Position numbers and translations under genes: made by a program. From contig JASEFS010000003.1 in assembly GCA_030018495.1 (NCBI GenBank), forward strand, positions 62,001 through 126,000: a stretch of DNA of 64,000 bases. Direction: 5' to 3'. Below are positions 7,591 to 46,084 of this stretch, one piece after another. The stretch is from Deltaproteobacteria bacterium (GTDB lineage Bacteria > Desulfobacterota > Desulfobaccia > Desulfobaccales > 0-14-0-80-60-11). The notes beneath the pieces are model-generated. The model was not told the origin of the DNA. It ran no database searches and worked only from the letters and a program-made list of their open reading frames with translations. The first letter of the stretch is position 1. Every line of letters begins with the position of its first letter.

Positions 7591-8772
7591 TCAACTCCGA
7601 TAGCTGGCGTTGATCTTGATGTAGTCTTCGGTAAGGTCGCAGGTGTCGTAGTGGTCTGAAAACCGGCCTTTGTGCAGATCGATGGTGATAGTGAAGGGGC
7701 CGGCCAGGATCAGCTCCCGGGCCGCGGCTTCCGCCTGCTCCCCCAGACCCTGGCCTGACTTGACCACCGGATGGCCGCCGAACGCGATGTCCACTGCGGC
7801 CGGGTCGAACCTGGCCCCGGAGCGCCCCAATGCCGCCATGAGGCGCCCCCAATTGACGTCCGCGCCGGCCATGGCGGTCTTGACCAAGGGCGAGGTGGCT
7901 ATGGTGGCTGCGGCTTGTCGGGCTTCTTTCGGGGTCGCCGCGCCCTGAACCAGGATGCGGAAAACCCGGGTGACGCCCTCTCCGTCGGCCACCACCTGCC
8001 GGGCCAGATCCTGCATCACCGCAACCAGCATCTCCTGAAACTCTCCTGACGCCGGGCTTCCCGGTCCCCAAGGCCCGTTCCCCGCTTTGCCGCTGGCCAG
8101 GAGCAGGGCCATGTCATTGGTGGAGGTGTCCCCGTCAATGGTGATGCGGTTGAAGCTTTGTTCCGCCCCTGCTTTGAGAGAGGTTTTCAAAAGATCCGGA
8201 CTTACGGCGGCATCGGTGCAAATAAATACCAGCAGGGTAGCCATGTCCGGGTGGATCATGCCCGCGCCTTTGGCAATGCCGGCCACCGTGACCTTGGCGC
8301 CGCTGATTTGCCCCTGCTGGTAAGCCGTTTTGGGACGGGTGTCCGTGGTCATGATGGCCCGGGCGGCCTCGGGGAGACCCTCCGGACGAAGGTTCCCGAC
8401 CAGACCGGGCAGAGCCTGGATTATTTTCGGAACCGGCAGCGGCTGGCCGATGACCCCGGTGGACGCGGGCAGGACCAGGGACTCCCGCAAACTGAGGAGG
8501 CGTGCCAGTTCACCGGTGATATGCCGGGCCGCGCCCAGGCCTTCGGCCCCGGTGCAGGCGTTGGCATTGCCGCTGTTGATGAGCACGGCTTGGGCTTGGC
8601 CGTTTCTCAAGCGGGCGCGGGTGATCAGGACCGGCGCGGCCTTGACCCGGTTGGTGGTGAATACCCCTGCCGCGGCCGCAGGTGTGTCAGCCACGATCAG
8701 GGCAAGGTCCAGGCCGCCGTGCTTTTTGATGCCGGCCGCCGCCCCGGCGGCCGTAAATCCCGGCACTATCAT
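7591..8772 (-). CDS. argJ: Bifunctional ornithine acetyltransferase / N-acetylglutamate synthase
   Basis: ArgJ (393 residues) moves the acetyl group from N-acetylornithine to glutamate in arginine biosynthesis and can also use acetyl-CoA. The proenzyme cuts itself before a conserved Thr; here the site is KGAGMIHPDMATLL with the nucleophile at Thr179. The N-terminal GVFTTNRVKAAPV, the NSGNANACTG oxyanion region and the C-terminal end DLTEDYIKINASYRS are typical. Its start overlaps the stop of the upstream GyrI-like gene by four bases (ATGA), with GGAGG seven bases before, so the two are translationally coupled. A stand-alone acetylglutamate-synthase-like GNAT lies 3.5 kb upstream on the same strand. 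Confidence 0.96.
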   Translation of the reverse strand: MIVPGFTAAGAAAGIKKHGGLDLALIVADTPAAAAGVFTTNRVKAAPVLITRARLRNGQAQAVLINSGNANACTGAEGLGAARHITGELARLLSLRESLVLPASTGVIGQPLPVPKIIQALPGLVGNLRPEGLPEAARAIMTTDTRPKTAYQQGQISGAKVTVAGIAKGAGMIHPDMATLLVFICTDAAVSPDLLKTSLKAGAEQSFNRITIDGDTSTNDMALLLASGKAGNGPWGPGSPASGEFQEMLVAVMQDLARQVVADGEGVTRVFRILVQGAATPKEARQAAATIATSPLVKTAMAGADVNWGRLMAALGRSGARFDPAAVDIAFGGHPVVKSGQGLGEQAEAAARELILAGPFTITIDLHKGRFSDHYDTCDLTEDYIKINASYRS

Positions 8773-9389
8773 CTCATAGCCTCCAGCGTCACGGGTTGCC
8801 GGATAATGGTGTTAAACTCTGCCGGCGGGGTTTGCCGTGGGTCGCTTAGATAAATTTCGTGGCGTCTGCCGCAGGTCTGATAGCCTTTCTCCTTGATGAA
8901 GGCTTGCAGCCGGGCAATGGCGGCGTGCGCTTCGCAAAAAGGCCCCACGTGGAGAATCTGAGCCGCTTCCCCTTCACACCAGGCGGAGAACCGCACTTTG
9001 TCCAGAAGCGGCAATTTGCTATTTCCCCTGCCCCGGTCTTTGGCGCGGTTTACGAGTTCCGGGGTGATGGTCTCCGGCTGCCTGATCAGCAGGGTCCAGC
9101 GACATCGGTGATTGTCGCGGTTGGCGAACTCGTCCGGTTCATCGGCCCGCCAGAGGGCCTCCAGGGGCATCACCTCGTAATCCAGACCCTGGTCCCTGAC
9201 CAAAGATTTCAGGGCATAGGAGACGCTGAAGAGGGCCTCCACGGCCTGTTGGAATTCGGGTCCGGCGTCGGGGGCGCCCTGGCCGTTGATCATCAAAAAA
9301 AGGAGGCGCGGGACGTTAATAAAGGTGGGTTCTTGGAGAGATGCGGTGTAGAGAGGGTTAGGAGCTGATTTTGAGTCTATCTTTGACAT
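8769..9389 (-). CDS. GyrI-like small-molecule-binding domain protein
   Basis: A 206-residue cytosolic protein with a GyrI-like (SOUL/effector-binding) fold. The diagnostic block is at the C-terminus: VGPFCEAHAAIARLQAF, then EKGYQTCGRRHEIYLSDPR and the ending NTIIRQPV. There is no DNA-binding domain, so this is the stand-alone form whose ligand is unknown. I start at the ATG at 9389; upward extension runs into a dispersed hairpin repeat at 9465 and would be non-coding. It is co-transcribed with argJ through a 4-base overlap and lies behind secA. Confidence 0.8.
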   Translation of the reverse strand: MSKIDSKSAPNPLYTASLQEPTFINVPRLLFLMINGQGAPDAGPEFQQAVEALFSVSYALKSLVRDQGLDYEVMPLEALWRADEPDEFANRDNHRCRWTLLIRQPETITPELVNRAKDRGRGNSKLPLLDKVRFSAWCEGEAAQILHVGPFCEAHAAIARLQAFIKEKGYQTCGRRHEIYLSDPRQTPPAEFNTIIRQPVTLEAMR

Positions 9390-9464
9390 AATCAGAGATA
9401 ATTCTCCAACCACAGGCCAAAGCCTGCGGATACCGATCCGCCAATTACAGCACCCGATAAAAAA

Positions 9465-9484
9465 GACAGGCTGAAAGCCTGTGC
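9465..9484. repeat. Dispersed hairpin repeat, GGAA-loop family
   Basis: An imperfect member of the family: ACAGGC, TGAAA loop, GCCTGT. It sits in the gap between secA and the GyrI-like gene. Beside it, GCGGAT-accg-ATCCGC (9426-9441) is a second short perfect hairpin. Confidence 0.65.
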
Positions 9485-9564
9485 CACTTGTATAAGGATA
9501 GGGGTGGGGGTCTGAGGGAGGGGTAAGGGCCCGCCGCCTTAACTCCCTCACTCAGAATTTTATC

Positions 9565-12069
<2,505 letters not shown>

Positions 12070-23479: not shown

Positions 23480-24100
23480 CTAAAATATCAGGCTTTGAAC
23501 CAGTTGCGGCCCTTCGGCAAAGGATTCCAGGTGATAAGCGGCTTTCAGCGAGGGATTGCGGTAGGCCACCAAGGCCACGCCGGCATTGTGCGCGAATTCC
23601 TCATCAACTTGTGAATCACCGATATATATAGCTTCCTCAGGTCTCAGCTGAAAGTGCTCCAGAATCCGCCAAAAGCTTTCGGGATGCGGCTTGGGACGGC
23701 TGACGTCCAGGGCCGATACCACCAAGTCGAAGTGGTGCTCCAGGCCATGGTATTGCAGCACCGGGTGGGTGGTAGTGGTGCGGTTGGTGGCCACGGCCGT
23801 GTAATACCGGGGTCTGAGAAAGATGAGAAAATTCCTCAAATGCGGGGCTTCCAGCATCAGGGGGATGAAAGGTTGATAATCCAGGCCGCGGCAGTAGTCC
23901 AGCACCTCTTCCAGGTTGTCGGCCTCCCGAAAGAGATATTCTACCGACTGCCTGGCAGTGTGACTGTGGACATAGTCGACGTCCGCGGGGTCCATGGGAG
24001 GCCGCCCGAACGCGGCGAGAATGGCGTTATAATAGGCGATATTGGCGTCCCGGGAGTCGAAAAGCACGCCGTCGCAGTCGAAACCCACGAGCTTGAGCAT
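23480..24100 (-). CDS. HAD-superfamily hydrolase (phosphoglycolate phosphatase-like)
   Basis: A 206-residue HAD phosphatase. Motif I is FDCDGVLFDS with the nucleophile Asp8 and general acid Asp10; motif II is ATNRTTT; motif III Lys lies in SRPKPHPESF; motif IV is YIGDSQVDEEFAHNAG. A helical cap lies between residues 18 and 85. The substrate is a small phosphate ester, possibly 2-phosphoglycolate, but this cannot be told from sequence. It is the last gene read in this direction before the chemotaxis cluster's end. Confidence 0.85.
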   Translation of the reverse strand: MLKLVGFDCDGVLFDSRDANIAYYNAILAAFGRPPMDPADVDYVHSHTARQSVEYLFREADNLEEVLDYCRGLDYQPFIPLMLEAPHLRNFLIFLRPRYYTAVATNRTTTTHPVLQYHGLEHHFDLVVSALDVSRPKPHPESFWRILEHFQLRPEEAIYIGDSQVDEEFAHNAGVALVAYRNPSLKAAYHLESFAEGPQLVQSLIF

Positions 24101-40522: not shown

Positions 40523-41496
40523 CCGAGCCTTTGCCTTATAACGACCTCAACTCCTATCTCAGGCGGCGCTTCGGCGAACGGGTGCAGAAGATCACCCTGG
40601 ACGCGGGGCTCACCTGCCCCAACCGGGACGGCCGGATGGGGGTGGGGGGCTGCCTGTATTGCAACGTCCGGGGCTCCGGTACCGGCGCCTGGGCCAAGGG
40701 TCTCAGCATCACCCGCCAGTTGGAGGAGGGCGCGGCCCGCCTCGGCAGGCGCTACGGAGCCAAAAAATTCATCGCTTACTTTCAGAGCTTCACCAACACT
40801 TACGGTCCGGTGGAGCGCCTGCGGTCCCTGTATGAGGAAGCTCTGGCCTTTCCCGGCGTCCTGGGCTTGAGCCTCGGCACCCGGCCCGACTGCCTGGATG
40901 AGGCTGTGCTTGACCTGCTGTCGGGCTATGCCCAGACTCGCCCGGTGTGGCTGGAATTGGGCCTTCAGTCCGCCCATGACCGGACTCTCAAACTCATCAA
41001 CCGGGGCCACGACGCGGCCTGTTTTGCCGATGCAGCGGCAAGAGCGGCCTGCCGCGGCCTGGAAGTGGTGGCTCACGTCATCCTGGGACTGCCGGCTGAA
41101 GAACTGGAGGATATGGCCGCGACGGCCCGCTTCCTGGCGGGCCTGCCTGTTCATGGTGTGAAAATCCATCTCCTCTACGTCATCCGGGGCTCGGGCCTGG
41201 AAAGCCTCTACCGAACCGGCGTCTATCAGCCGCTGAGCGAGGCCGCGTATGTTCAGGCTGTGGTCAATTTTATAGAAATTTTGCCGCCTCATGTGGTCAT
41301 TCATCGCTTAACCGGCGATCCTCATCCCGAAGAACTGGCGGCTCCGGCTTGGTGTCTGGAAAAGAACAGGGTCCTCAGGCTGATCAAGGATGAATTCGCC
41401 CGCCGGGGCAGCCGTCAGGGGAGCCGCCGGTGCCACCATTCTTGCAAACCGCCTGAGCAGTATTCCACGGCCGGTTGTATTCCGGAAAATCGGTGA
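40519..41496 (+). CDS. TIGR01212/YhcC-family radical SAM protein
   Basis: A 325-residue radical SAM enzyme of the YhcC group. The cluster-binding Cys lie in TCPNRDGRMGVGGCLYCN; the rest matches the elongator-3-like family (FQSFTNTYGPVERL, LSLGTRPDCLD, LELGLQSAHDRTLKLINRGH). The substrate is unknown, although a role in RNA modification fits its position behind rsmE. The start is a TTG overlapping the rsmE stop by four bases, with a G-rich ribosome site upstream; no in-frame ATG occurs near enough. Confidence 0.88.
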   Translation: MTEPLPYNDLNSYLRRRFGERVQKITLDAGLTCPNRDGRMGVGGCLYCNVRGSGTGAWAKGLSITRQLEEGAARLGRRYGAKKFIAYFQSFTNTYGPVERLRSLYEEALAFPGVLGLSLGTRPDCLDEAVLDLLSGYAQTRPVWLELGLQSAHDRTLKLINRGHDAACFADAAARAACRGLEVVAHVILGLPAEELEDMAATARFLAGLPVHGVKIHLLYVIRGSGLESLYRTGVYQPLSEAAYVQAVVNFIEILPPHVVIHRLTGDPHPEELAAPAWCLEKNRVLRLIKDEFARRGSRQGSRRCHHSCKPPEQYSTAGCIPENR

Positions 41497-42239
41497 ACCT
41501 GCGGCCCCGAAATCACTGGTCCTGGTGGCTCCTGGCCGGATTGGCGGTATCTGCGGCTGCGGGCGCGGTGCTGATCTATTATTATTCTGGCGCCCTAATC
41601 GCGGGATGGCATCAGCTTTACCTCTACCTGCACGAGAAGGAGAAAATCCGTTATCTGCTCAAGCAGGCCGGGCCGTTCGGGCCGCTGGTATTCATCGCGG
41701 TGCAGGCCTTGCAGGTGGTGTTTGCCCCCATCCCCGGGGAAGCCACCGGCTTTATCGGCGGGTTTCTCTTCGGCGCGCCGCTGGGCTTTTTGTTTTCCAC
41801 CATCGGCCTGACCCTGGGTTCCATCGCCGCCTTTCTTCTGGGGCGTCTGTTGGAAAAAAAGTTCGTGGTCAAAGTGGTGTCGCCCGCAACCATGGCGCGC
41901 TTCGATTTCGTCATGGAGCACCAGGGCGCGCTGGTGGCTTTTTTCCTGTTCCTGTTTCCCGGTTTTCCCAAGGACTATCTGTGCTTCCTCCTGGGTCTGA
42001 GCCCTATGTCCTTCAGGCTGTTCGTTATCCTGGTAGCCGTCGGCCGCGCCCCCGGCACCCTTATGCTCTCCCTCCAGGGAGCCCAGGTCTATGAGGGCAA
42101 TTACCTGTCCTTCGGGGTAATTTTGGGCTTGTGCCTGGCTTTGGGTGGCCTGATGTATTATTATCGGGAAACCTTATATCATTGGGTGCGGCGTTTGGAG
42201 GGGAAACCCGAAAGCGCGGAGCCGCCAGAAATTCGGTGA
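41493..42239 (+). CDS. VTT/DedA-like membrane protein (TVP38/TMEM64 type)
   Basis: A 248-residue inner-membrane protein of the SNARE-associated/VTT family with about six membrane segments. The core mark is APIPGEATGFIGGFLFGAPLGF followed by STIGLTLGSIAAFLLGR, then FPGFPKDYLCFLLGLSPM. Relatives move or flip lipids. I choose GTG 41493, which overlaps the preceding stop (GTGA); a TTG 6 codons upstream is the alternative. It ends the prmA-rsmE run. Confidence 0.85.
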   Translation: MNLRPRNHWSWWLLAGLAVSAAAGAVLIYYYSGALIAGWHQLYLYLHEKEKIRYLLKQAGPFGPLVFIAVQALQVVFAPIPGEATGFIGGFLFGAPLGFLFSTIGLTLGSIAAFLLGRLLEKKFVVKVVSPATMARFDFVMEHQGALVAFFLFLFPGFPKDYLCFLLGLSPMSFRLFVILVAVGRAPGTLMLSLQGAQVYEGNYLSFGVILGLCLALGGLMYYYRETLYHWVRRLEGKPESAEPPEIR

Positions 42240-42563: not shown

Positions 42564-43577
42564 ATGACTTCTCCACCCGAACCTGCCTTTATGGAATTGT
42601 TGAACCTGGCCAGGAGCTTCAGGCCCGCCAAGATTCTCATGGTGGCCACGGACCTGGGCGTGTTCGACCATCTGGAAGAGCCCCGGCACGCCCCGGAGGT
42701 GGCGGCCAAAGTTGAGGCCAATGCCCGGGCCGTGGGTATTCTCTTGAACGGCCTGGCCGCCATCGGCGTGGTGGAAAAGCAAGGGGAGCGCTTCAAAAAC
42801 GGCCCGGCCGCGTCCCGCTATCTGGTGCACGCCAAGGAAGATTACCGGGGGGCCATTATCCGGCACATGCACCACACCTGGCTGGGGTGGACGGAACTGG
42901 GCCGGACCGTGGCCACCGGCAAGGCCCCGGACCGCAAATCCGAACAATGGCTGGATCGCCATCCCGAATCGGAAAAGTCCTGGATGCGGGACTTCATCTG
43001 GGGCATGCATGCCATCGCCCAGGACCTGGCCCCCGGTGTGGTGGCCAAATTCGATTTGCAGGGTGTGCGGCACTTGCTTGACCTGGGGGGCGGCCCGGCC
43101 ACCTATGCCATTAACTTTGCCAAGGCCAACCCTGGGATCAAGGCCACGGTCTTTGACCTGCCCGGGCCGGTCGAAATCGCCCGGGAAAACATCGCCCGCC
43201 ACGGCCAGACCGACCGGGTGGGCACCTTAGCCGGAAATTTCCTGGAAGACGACATCGGCTCCGGCTATGATTTTATCTGGGTTTCCCAGATTCTTCACAG
43301 CCATGACGAAGCCCAGTGTCAGCTCATCATCAAAAAATGCGTCCAGGCCCTGGCCGGCGGCGGCCGCCTGGCCATCCAGGATTTTTTCCTCAATGACGAC
43401 GGCTACACTCCGGTGGAAGCTGCCCTGTTTTCCGTGCACATGCTGGCCGTCACTCCGGGCGGACGCTCCTATAAGCACCGGGAAGTGCAAGAATGGCTGA
43501 GGGAAGCGGGCCTGGTCGAGGTGGAGCACTTCGAAACCAGCCCCCAGACCAGCGCGGTGGTGGGGTGGAAGAAGTAA
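42564..43577 (+). CDS. SAM-dependent O-methyltransferase (dimerisation plus methyltransferase domains)
   Basis: A 337-residue enzyme with the two-domain plan of plant/antibiotic O-methyltransferases: an N-terminal winged-helix dimerisation domain (1-100, ARSFRPAKILMVATDLGVFDHLEE) and a C-terminal Rossmann domain with LLDLGGGPATYAINFAKANP (motif I), TVFDLPGPVEIARENI and the SQILHSHDEAQC segment where the catalytic His is expected. The substrate is probably a small hydroxylated or quinone-like compound. It lies 109 bases upstream of the PTPS-like trio on the same strand and might be co-transcribed. Confidence 0.85.
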   Translation: MTSPPEPAFMELLNLARSFRPAKILMVATDLGVFDHLEEPRHAPEVAAKVEANARAVGILLNGLAAIGVVEKQGERFKNGPAASRYLVHAKEDYRGAIIRHMHHTWLGWTELGRTVATGKAPDRKSEQWLDRHPESEKSWMRDFIWGMHAIAQDLAPGVVAKFDLQGVRHLLDLGGGPATYAINFAKANPGIKATVFDLPGPVEIARENIARHGQTDRVGTLAGNFLEDDIGSGYDFIWVSQILHSHDEAQCQLIIKKCVQALAGGGRLAIQDFFLNDDGYTPVEAALFSVHMLAVTPGGRSYKHREVQEWLREAGLVEVEHFETSPQTSAVVGWKK

Positions 43578-43686: not shown

Positions 43687-44076
43687 ATGGAGCAGCCCAT
43701 GTACACCGTGGCGGTGAAGCGGGATTTTGTGGCCCAGCATTTTTTGACCGGAGGAGATTGGGGGCCGGAGAACGAGAAGCATTCTCACCATTATCAGGTG
43801 GAGGTGCAGCTTAAGGGCGAGCGCCTGGATGAACACGGCTATCTCGCGGACATTGTAGACATCGAAGCCAACCTGGAAGATTTGGTGGTTTATTACCGGG
43901 ACCGGACCCTGAATGAACTACCCGAATTCGCCGGCCTGAATCCCAGCATCGAGCACTTCGCCCGGATTTTGTGGGAAGGTCTGGCGAGCCGCATCAAGGC
44001 ACCCACCGTAAGCTCCATGCAGGTGAAAATCTGGGAGGCGGAGATCGCCTGGGCCGCGTACCAAAAGGTTCTGTAG
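43687..44076 (+). CDS. PTPS/QueD-like protein with altered active site
   Basis: A 129-residue member of the 6-pyruvoyl-tetrahydropterin synthase superfamily. The zinc ligands are kept: His18 in VAQHFL and His32 and His34 in KHSHHY. Four residues before the first of these, where QueD has its catalytic Cys, this protein has Glu28. By my alignment the Asp-His catalytic pair is Asp72-Arg73. Glu for Cys is known from PTPS-III proteins that make 6-hydroxymethyl-dihydropterin for folate. It therefore need not make queuosine precursor. The glycosyltransferase downstream overlaps by one base (TAGTG), which ties the two functionally. Confidence 0.78.
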   Translation: MEQPMYTVAVKRDFVAQHFLTGGDWGPENEKHSHHYQVEVQLKGERLDEHGYLADIVDIEANLEDLVVYYRDRTLNELPEFAGLNPSIEHFARILWEGLASRIKAPTVSSMQVKIWEAEIAWAAYQKVL

Positions 44077-45158
44077 TGCGCCTGGGTCTGGTCATTTACG
44101 GGAGCCTGGACATCATAAGCGGCGGCTTCCTCTATGACCGCATCCTGGTTGATTATCTGCGCCACCAGGGGGAGCAGGTGGAAATTATTGCTCTCCCCTG
44201 GCGCACTTATCCCCGTAATTTGGCCGACAATTTCTCCGCCGCGGTGTTTCGCCGTCTGGCGGAGATCAAAGTGGATGTGCTTATCCAGGACGAGTTGTGC
44301 CATCCGTCTTTATTCCGGCAGAACCGGCTTTATCGCCGCCGGTTTCAGGAGGTGCCGGTCATTTCCCTGGTGCACCATTTGCGCTGCTCGGAGGCCCGGC
44401 CCGCCTGGCAGAACCGGCTCTACCGGCTGGTGGAGCGGCTTTATCTGAATTCAACGGACGGCTTCATCTTCAACAGCCGGGCCACCAAACGGGAAGTAGA
44501 GGCGGTGGTGGGCCGGATGAAGCCCAGTGTTATGGCCGTGCCGGGCGGCGACCGGTTCGCCGCAACCCTCAGCGACGCGGCGCTCATGGCCCGGGCCAAA
44601 TCTCCGGGGCCGCTGCAAATCCTGTTTCTGGGAAACCTTATCCCCCGCAAGGGCCTTCACACCTTGCTGGAGGCCTTGGCCTCCCTGCCCCGCCTATGGC
44701 GTTTGGTCGCGGCGGGGAGCCTGGACATGGATACAGCTTATGTGCGCGCGGTGCGCCGTCAGGTGGCGCGCCTTGGCTTGGCAGAGGAGGTGGCCTTCAC
44801 GGGGCCTCTGGCGGAGGACGAGGTGGCCGCGTTTCTGGCCCAAAGCCACGTCCTGGCCGTGCCTTCCACCTATGAAGGCTATGGCATCGTCTATGTGGAA
44901 GGCATGAGCTTCGGTCTGCCGGCCATCGCCACCACCGCAGGCGGGGCCCGGGAAATCATCACTCACGGCCATGACGGCTTTCTCGTCCCGCCCGAGGACC
45001 CGGCAGGCCTGGCCGAGTGCCTGGAAATCCTTTTGCAGGACCGGGAAAAGCTCCTGGCCATGAGTCTGGCCGCCCGGAAAACCTTTCTGGCCCACCCCAC
45101 CTGGCAAGAGACTTGCCGCTCGATACATCAATTTCTACAGGACATTGCGGGGAAGTAA
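44076..45158 (+). CDS. GT4-family glycosyltransferase
   Basis: A 360-residue retaining GT-B glycosyltransferase. The N-terminal acceptor domain starts VRLGLVIYGSLDIISGGFLYDR; the nucleotide-sugar domain begins ILFLGNLIPRKGLHTLLEAL and has the Ex7E motif in YEGYGIVYVEG, with GLPAIATTAGGAREII. No membrane segment, so it is cytoplasmic. The GTG start overlaps the stop of the PTPS-like gene by one base and has AAAGG upstream. The acceptor is unknown; the operon suggests a pterin-type small molecule, but a lipid or polysaccharide is equally possible. Confidence 0.85.
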   Translation: MRLGLVIYGSLDIISGGFLYDRILVDYLRHQGEQVEIIALPWRTYPRNLADNFSAAVFRRLAEIKVDVLIQDELCHPSLFRQNRLYRRRFQEVPVISLVHHLRCSEARPAWQNRLYRLVERLYLNSTDGFIFNSRATKREVEAVVGRMKPSVMAVPGGDRFAATLSDAALMARAKSPGPLQILFLGNLIPRKGLHTLLEALASLPRLWRLVAAGSLDMDTAYVRAVRRQVARLGLAEEVAFTGPLAEDEVAAFLAQSHVLAVPSTYEGYGIVYVEGMSFGLPAIATTAGGAREIITHGHDGFLVPPEDPAGLAECLEILLQDREKLLAMSLAARKTFLAHPTWQETCRSIHQFLQDIAGK

Positions 45159-46084
45159 TGTCGAGACCTGCGGAATACAGTTTCATCCGCTATCTGGCCG
45201 CCAAAAAGAGCGTTGATGATCGGGCTTTGAACCGCCGGGTGTTGGAAGCCCTGGCCCAGGCTGTGGCGGCGCGGTCTGCCGGGACGCCCTTGCGGGTTTT
45301 GGAAATCGGCTGCGGCATCGGCGCCATGGCGGAGAGGCTGGTAAAGTGGGGTATCCTCAAGGATGCCGATTACACCGGCATCGATTTGGAGCCGGCCTGC
45401 GTGGCCGAAGCTCTCAGGCGTCTGCAACGGTTTGCCGAACTAAACGATCTTGCCGTGGAGACCGAAACCGAGAGACTGAAGCTCACAGGTCCGGACCTCA
45501 ATCTATCCCTGACTTTTGAAGCTGCGGACTGTTTTGCCTTTGCCGACAGAGAAACCGGGCGCTCGACTTGGGACCTCCTGGTAGCCCACGCGTTTTTGGA
45601 CCTGGTGGATTTGGGCGAGGCCTTGCCGAGGCTTTTGGCGCTGTTAAGGCCCGGAGGCTGGTTTTACTTTCCCCTTAACTTCGACGGAGCCACGGTGTTT
45701 CAGCCCGTCATTGAACCGGCCTGGGAAGGGCGGCTCATGGACCTTTATCACCAAACCATGATTCGGCGCGGTCTGGGAGGCAAGGTCTCCGACGGCAGCA
45801 CCACGGGGCGGCGGCTTTTTGCCGCGCTCAAGGCCGCGGGGGCCGAGGTCCTGGCTGCGGGCGGCTCCGACTGGGTGGTTTTTCCGGAGGCAGGGGGTTA
45901 TCCGGAGGACGAGGCGTATTTTCTGCACTTCATCATTCACACTATCCAAGAGGCTTTGGCGGACTATCCGGGATGGGACCGCCGGGCCCTGGAGGCCTGG
46001 ATCGACCGGCGCCATGCCCAGGTGGAGGCCGGGGAGCTGGTCTATCTGGCCCACCAGCTAGATTTCTTCGGCCGCGTTCTTTAA
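45158..46084 (+). CDS. Class I SAM-dependent methyltransferase
   Basis: A 308-residue Rossmann methyltransferase. Motif I is RVLEIGCGIGAMAERL, followed by YTGIDLEPACVAEA and the post-motif LLVAHAFLDLVDLGEALPRLLALLRPGG. The C-terminal 120 residues hold no second domain I recognise. The ATG overlaps the glycosyltransferase stop by one base (TAATG). It closes the three-gene operon with the PTPS-like and glycosyltransferase genes. Confidence 0.82.
   Translation: MSRPAEYSFIRYLAAKKSVDDRALNRRVLEALAQAVAARSAGTPLRVLEIGCGIGAMAERLVKWGILKDADYTGIDLEPACVAEALRRLQRFAELNDLAVETETERLKLTGPDLNLSLTFEAADCFAFADRETGRSTWDLLVAHAFLDLVDLGEALPRLLALLRPGGWFYFPLNFDGATVFQPVIEPAWEGRLMDLYHQTMIRRGLGGKVSDGSTTGRRLFAALKAAGAEVLAAGGSDWVVFPEAGGYPEDEAYFLHFIIHTIQEALADYPGWDRRALEAWIDRRHAQVEAGELVYLAHQLDFFGRVL

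Follow-up and report, generated by a model that had tools for sequence, protein, structure and literature searches.

What do three overlapping genes for a PTPS-like protein, a glycosyltransferase (GT) and a methyltransferase (MT) make together? The trio lies on the forward strand of the window, the whole 64,000-nucleotide stretch of contig JASEFS010000003.1 from a Deltaproteobacteria bacterium that was analysed. The PTPS-like gene (43687..44076; P0001, 129 aa) matches Pfam PTPS PF01242 (E 4e-27), the GT4 family glycosyltransferase gene (44076..45158; P0002, GTG start) matches PF00534 (Glycos_transf_1; E 1e-35), and the gene for a class I SAM-dependent methyltransferase (45158..46084; P0003) matches PF08242 (Methyltransf_12; E 5e-10). 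Both of the one-base overlaps that an earlier note on this DNA had described, at 44076 and 45158, are present: the TAG stop of the PTPS-like gene (44074-44076) shares one base with the GTG start of the GT gene (44076-44078), and the TAA stop of the latter (45156-45158) shares one base with the ATG of the MT gene (45158-45160). Because most PTPS-like orthologues begin at MYTVAV, the true start of the first gene is probably the ATG at 43699, behind GGAG, rather than 43687.

A scan of the PTPS-like protein against GTDB contigs yields 51 loci, about 45 with close relatives. These loci are mostly in Chloroflexota, with others in Desulfobacterota, Calditrichota, Binatota, Cohnella, Pseudohongiella, Methylohalobius, and Actinobacteria. 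The GT gene follows within 500 bp of the PTPS-like gene in 34 of 41 loci, and an MT gene follows the GT gene in 30 of 40; the tallies of gene order from contig loci and from the genomes of relatives overlap, with some genomes in both. These counts, together with the same order on archaeal megaplasmids, place the arrangement far from chance. The trio order is kept in Desulfobacterota relatives, on which the earlier note had made its reading depend, as well as in Chloroflexota and on plasmids of haloarchaea; in Actinobacteria and Proteobacteria it recurs with lower similarity. This persistence across phyla and in Archaea bears out the earlier proposal that the trio is one functional unit; the observation is stronger than was claimed, and the pathway is larger.

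The PTPS-like protein of this type (window-type PTPS) is present in 21 of 59 sampled genomes (20 besides the window's own) in a sample weighted to its own family and order, in 15 of 297 sampled genomes of its phylum, and in 12 of 151 sampled Chloroflexota genomes. One genome (G021) carries two copies, on C55 and C167, and other genes precede the C167 copy (L102). The GT gene is missing from the immediate cluster in Cohnella. No relative was found in the viral contigs searched.

The PTPS-like protein has the zinc ligands H18, H32, and H34 and a pterin-holding glutamate, E117, in a T-fold. Residue counts show H18, H34, and E117 to be invariant in window-type sequences, while the H32 position is His in 53 and Asn in 7. 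The AlphaFold2 model (pLDDT 95) superposes on QueD, PTPS, and SCO6650 structures with Foldseek TM values of about 0.8-0.92, as expected for the superfamily fold; SCO6650 (3d7j) is the best PDB match (TM 0.92), followed by QueD. The catalytic residues have diverged. The column of the QueD cysteine is Glu (E28) in 60 of 60 window-type sequences, and in 61 of 61 the Asp column is R/K/G/A and the His column D/E/G/S, so that the Asp-His dyad becomes mostly Arg-Asp (R71-D72 in the window protein). In comparison, all three residues are kept in 14 of 14 QueD sequences. The TIGR03367 score is 48 against a cut-off of 89. As no member keeps the Cys or the Asp-His dyad, the protein is, judged by its sequence, not a standard pterin enzyme; a QueD or BH4-type PTPS role is rejected on these residues, and the 'pterin-forming enzyme' of the earlier note does not hold in the PTPS/QueD sense. 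Ring closure or side-chain chemistry by this protein is unproven because it is without the known catalytic residues, and it could be a binding protein rather than a catalyst.

In the tree, the window type (100/100), QueD (99/96), and PTPS-IV (96/79) form three separate clades. The window type thus stands as its own clade beside the other two, and the tree gives no nearest pair among the three. It shares the fold, the zinc site, and the pterin-holding Glu with QueD/PTPS-I but lacks the catalytic Cys of the QueD CxxxHGH motif and the Asp-His dyad; the window's own genome has a separate canonical QueD (G000:C55). The window-type motif is ExxxHSH, in which a conserved Glu precedes the first His by four residues and Ser or Ala replaces the Gly; the PTPS-II motif is CxxxxxHGH. 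PTPS-III also has Glu in place of the catalytic Cys but in an ExxHGH motif, and the window type has in addition lost the Asp-His dyad. Several features are shared with PTPS-IV: its structure SCO6650 is the best match, its Streptomyces, Thiodictyon, and Rhizobium members have the same order of an MDR dehydrogenase (MDR), PTPS, GT, and MT genes, and window-type loci share its neighbourhood of RibD_C (PF01872) and GTP cyclohydrolase II (GCH II; PF00925). The sequence signatures differ, with WG[PA]EN...HSH in the window type in place of FGPAQ..HGA, so that by the FGPAQ signature the window type falls outside PTPS-IV. In the HxH zinc motif, the second His is kept in the window type and lost in SCO6650. 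In most plasmid records examined, these genes are labelled 6-carboxytetrahydropterin synthase, a queuosine enzyme, and this annotation conceals the gene set.

The glycosyltransferase bears on what is being decorated. Its AlphaFold2 model (pLDDT 94.8) is nearest to MshA, SPS, and BshA, and GT4 structures fill the Foldseek list, in keeping with the two Rossmann-like domains of a GT4 enzyme. The lipid mannosyltransferases PimA and PimB' are also among the matches. The predicted fold is nearest to small-molecule GT4 enzymes, with an acceptor class that is not readable from the fold. In a classical pterin glycoside pathway, the PTPS-like protein would make a 6-substituted pterin from dihydroneopterin triphosphate, and the GT and MT would decorate it. 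The retained PTPS fold, Glu, and zinc site are consistent with such a route, as is the presence of BGluT structures among the GT4 matches, but BGluT ranks only 39th, far down the fold list, and the QueD-type Cys, Asp, and His are replaced throughout. In addition, the cyclohydrolase of the cluster, where present, is GCH II or GCH III and not GCH I, and FolE (PF01227, GTP cyclohydrolase I) was not found in the window's own genome or in any of 25 genomes of its order. The classical route is accordingly a poor candidate. The likeness to cyanopterin or biopterin-glucoside drawn by the earlier note is weak: a GT4 enzyme stands beside pterin-like chemistry in both systems, but the window GT resembles MshA, BshA, and sucrose-phosphate synthase more than it does BGluT, and the window route appears to enter via GCH II or III, not GCH I. 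Canonical QueD is present in the window's order despite the lack of PF01227 matches in the 25 genomes, and FolE2 (PF02649) is presumably a candidate replacement there.

The trio is almost certainly the latter half of a larger module, which in its usual complete form runs GCH II, a RibD_C-type reductase, a BchC-like dehydrogenase (the MDR enzyme), the PTPS-like protein, GT4, and MT. Upstream of the trio, MDR genes are found in 28 of 35 loci, RibD_C in 25 of 35, and GCH II in 19 of 35; in Chloroflexota loci, RibD_C is often fused to GCH II. In the window's own genome, RibD_C (L116 9627-10349) and MDR (8602-9630) lie on another contig, C58, with an ATGA overlap. The sole GCH II-like match found in this genome is a RibAB-sized frame on C56, which is the housekeeping copy and not a cluster gene. 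An MDR gene occurs in all 21 PTPS-positive genomes and a dedicated RibD_C in all 17 PTPS-positive genomes of a smaller set; G005 alone is PTPS-negative yet has partial RibD_C and MDR copies. In Chloroflexota, strong GT and strong MDR matches fall in the same 10 of 151 genomes, all PTPS-positive. A further 16 Chloroflexota genomes have weaker MDR matches. Several of the loci retrieved for these matches encode a more distant PTPS (its motif, where shown, is FGPA), and in most of them a distant GT comes next, so that the gene order is kept.

The best NCBIfam match of the MDR dehydrogenase is BchC, but its 71 bits are far under the BchC cut-off of 291, and no chlorophyll genes were seen in the neighbourhoods examined. 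The enzyme is without any classical zinc ligand when set against a sorbitol dehydrogenase reference sequence. RibD_C scores 183 bits against a model cut-off of 150, and no deaminase domain was seen in the cluster RibD_C proteins scanned. The 2-amino group is therefore probably kept, in agreement with E117.

These features also bear on a different product class, in which the RibD_C product feeds a riboflavin- or F420-type compound that is then glycosylated, giving a lumazine- or flavin-like glycoside that has lost the amino group, or else a branch towards deazaflavin (F420). GCH II and RibD_C are riboflavin-pathway enzymes, and the F420 precursor is a ribityl pyrimidine, which counts in favor of this branch. 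PTPS-IV has further been linked to F420 synthesis in a statement given as unpublished (PMC5041015). On the other side, the cluster RibD_C proteins lack the deaminase domain, and the Glu kept in the PTPS-like protein agrees with a 2-amino group. CofD (PF01933) occurs in 1 of 29 genomes and was not found in the window's own genome or in the members of its order searched, on which basis an F420 role is rejected for the window's clade. A flavin or F420 product overall is improbable.

Plasmid-borne copies widen the set of hosts and point to the start of the pathway. The order MDR, PTPS, GT4, MT is found on plasmids of the haloarchaea Haloarcula sinaiiensis, H. marismortui (with no PTPS gene listed in the gap), Natronorubrum, Halomicrococcus, and Haladaptatus. 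It is also found on plasmids of Streptomyces fungicidicus, Thiodictyon, Methylosinus trichosporium OB3b (with a hypothetical protein in the MT slot), Rhizobium sp. SL42, and Microbacterium. In four haloarchaea, the product of the gene that follows GT shares 38-46% identity with the window MT. The GT gene is not adjacent in Haloarcula pelagica, H. halophila, Halobellus, and a Rhodobacteraceae strain. GCH III takes the place of GCH II in two Haloarcula clusters; close to the clusters of two other Haloarcula and of Streptomyces, creatininase-family proteins are encoded. The archaeal route to DARP (2,5-diamino-6-ribosylamino-pyrimidinone phosphate) consists of GCH III and a creatininase-family deformylase, so both domains of life point to entry at DARP, which is very likely the starting compound. 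The creatininase-family step is only a lead, since MftE gives these proteins a better score than ArfB does.

The reading favored here, with reasonable though far from full confidence, is that the trio forms the latter half of an undescribed but widespread pathway that starts at GTP and ends in a methylated glycoside whose core is a 2-amino-4-oxo-pyrimidine or a pterin. From the observed gene identities, gene order, co-occurrence, and residue losses, we infer all of its chemistry as follows. GTP cyclohydrolase II would produce DARP, a step served in this genome by housekeeping RibAB, in other bacteria by a dedicated enzyme, and in some haloarchaea by GCH III. The stand-alone RibD_C would then reduce the ribosyl chain to ribityl with the 2-amino group kept, and the BchC-like MDR dehydrogenase would oxidise a side-chain hydroxyl. 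If this oxidation falls at C2', the resulting ketone could close on the 5-amino group to give a dihydropterin. Such a ketone would be the same as the Amadori product of GTP cyclohydrolase I, making the route a redox bypass of the Amadori step; this part of the scheme is rather unlikely. The PTPS-like protein may bind the pterin or pyrimidine via its Glu and zinc site and trim or rearrange the side chain by chemistry other than Cys/Asp-His. The GT4 enzyme would add a sugar, and the MT would methylate.

Of the methylated pterin glycoside put forward in the earlier note, the part that agrees with these data is a GTP-derived compound carrying a sugar and a methyl group, while the pterin remains unproven. 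That the product is a methylated glycoside is somewhat favored; that it carries a pterin ring falls a little short of an even chance.

Membrane-type partners often accompany the module, in the form of CDP-alcohol phosphatidyltransferase (CDP-alcohol PT) and flippase-like LPG-synthase-TM (LPG_synthase_TM) genes. Chloroflexota loci often add both, along with small membrane proteins. RibD and CDP-alcohol PT are both part of the clusters in Rhizobium, Microbacterium, and Thiodictyon; LPG_synthase_TM joins them in Rhizobium and Microbacterium, and GCH II in Rhizobium. These partners perhaps suggest a membrane-linked product, and in many lineages the two proteins may then anchor the glycoside to a membrane lipid. 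Such a lipid link, outside the window's clade, is plausible but falls on the doubtful side. They also raise the alternative of a lipid glycosylation unit, in which GT and MT act on a membrane lipid or a polysaccharide, with GCH, RibD, and PTPS supplying an unrelated cofactor for this process. The recurrence of CDP-alcohol PT in Chloroflexota, Actinobacteria, Rhizobium, and haloarchaea, of LPG_synthase_TM in the first three, and of PlsC-like, DoxX, or DUF7475 membrane proteins in some clusters is consistent with this alternative. However, the PTPS, GT, and MT genes overlap or nearly touch in both Bacteria and Archaea, and no CDP-alcohol PT or flippase-like gene turned up in the cluster neighbourhoods of the window's own order, membrane partners being missing near the cluster in several others too, while MDR and PTPS stay together. 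A separate lipid glycosylation unit is distinctly unlikely. A CDP-alcohol PT near the QueD gene of the window's own genome (C55) is only weakly similar to the cluster type and was left out.

Taken to its furthest extent, the favored GTP-to-glycoside pathway would yield a pterin glycoside anchored in the membrane, a redox lipid or cofactor of a new class that is shared by Bacteria and haloarchaea and made by a route independent of GTP cyclohydrolase I. This would run from GCH II/III through ribityl reduction, C2' oxidation, and spontaneous ring closure to a repurposed PTPS, followed by glycosylation, methylation, transfer to lipid by the CDP-alcohol phosphatidyltransferase, and flippase-like export. 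Nearby cytochrome b561, DoxX, and DUF420 genes could then encode electron-transfer partners. This extended version is a long shot.

The placement of PTPS-IV beside cyclohydrolase II and RibD_C is already known, PF00925 and PF01872 having been reported near it (PMC5445326). In the literature searched, from which many subscription papers were beyond reach, no product or activity is reported for any member, and no account was found that treats the GT, MT, MDR, and CDP-alcohol PT genes and their flippase-like partners as a single pathway. A widespread metabolite or a component of the membrane is the probable output of this ordered gene set, which spans Chloroflexota, Desulfobacterota, Actinobacteria, Proteobacteria, and haloarchaea. 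With the longer list of genes and with carriers that can be cultured (Haloarcula, Methylosinus trichosporium OB3b, Streptomyces, and Rhizobium), what PTPS-IV proteins do can be tested directly.

Several other genes lie around these loci. The fourth gene of the earlier note, an O-methyltransferase (42564-43577), does sit 109 bases upstream of the trio, but its proposed membership in the pathway is not upheld: it is never near the trio elsewhere, and its orthologues lie at other places in relatives with or without the trio. A VTT-domain (DedA-like) membrane protein (41475-42239, +) is encoded upstream of it. In one relative, a QueD gene lies ~1.6 kb downstream of the module MT (L090 3300-7649, G009). 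A HAD hydrolase gene is found downstream of MT in 6 of the 11 relatives' loci with enough flank, a possible phosphatase step that serves as a lead, and the window itself encodes a HAD-family hydrolase (23480-24100, -) that is 44-50% identical to the relatives' post-MT HAD gene.
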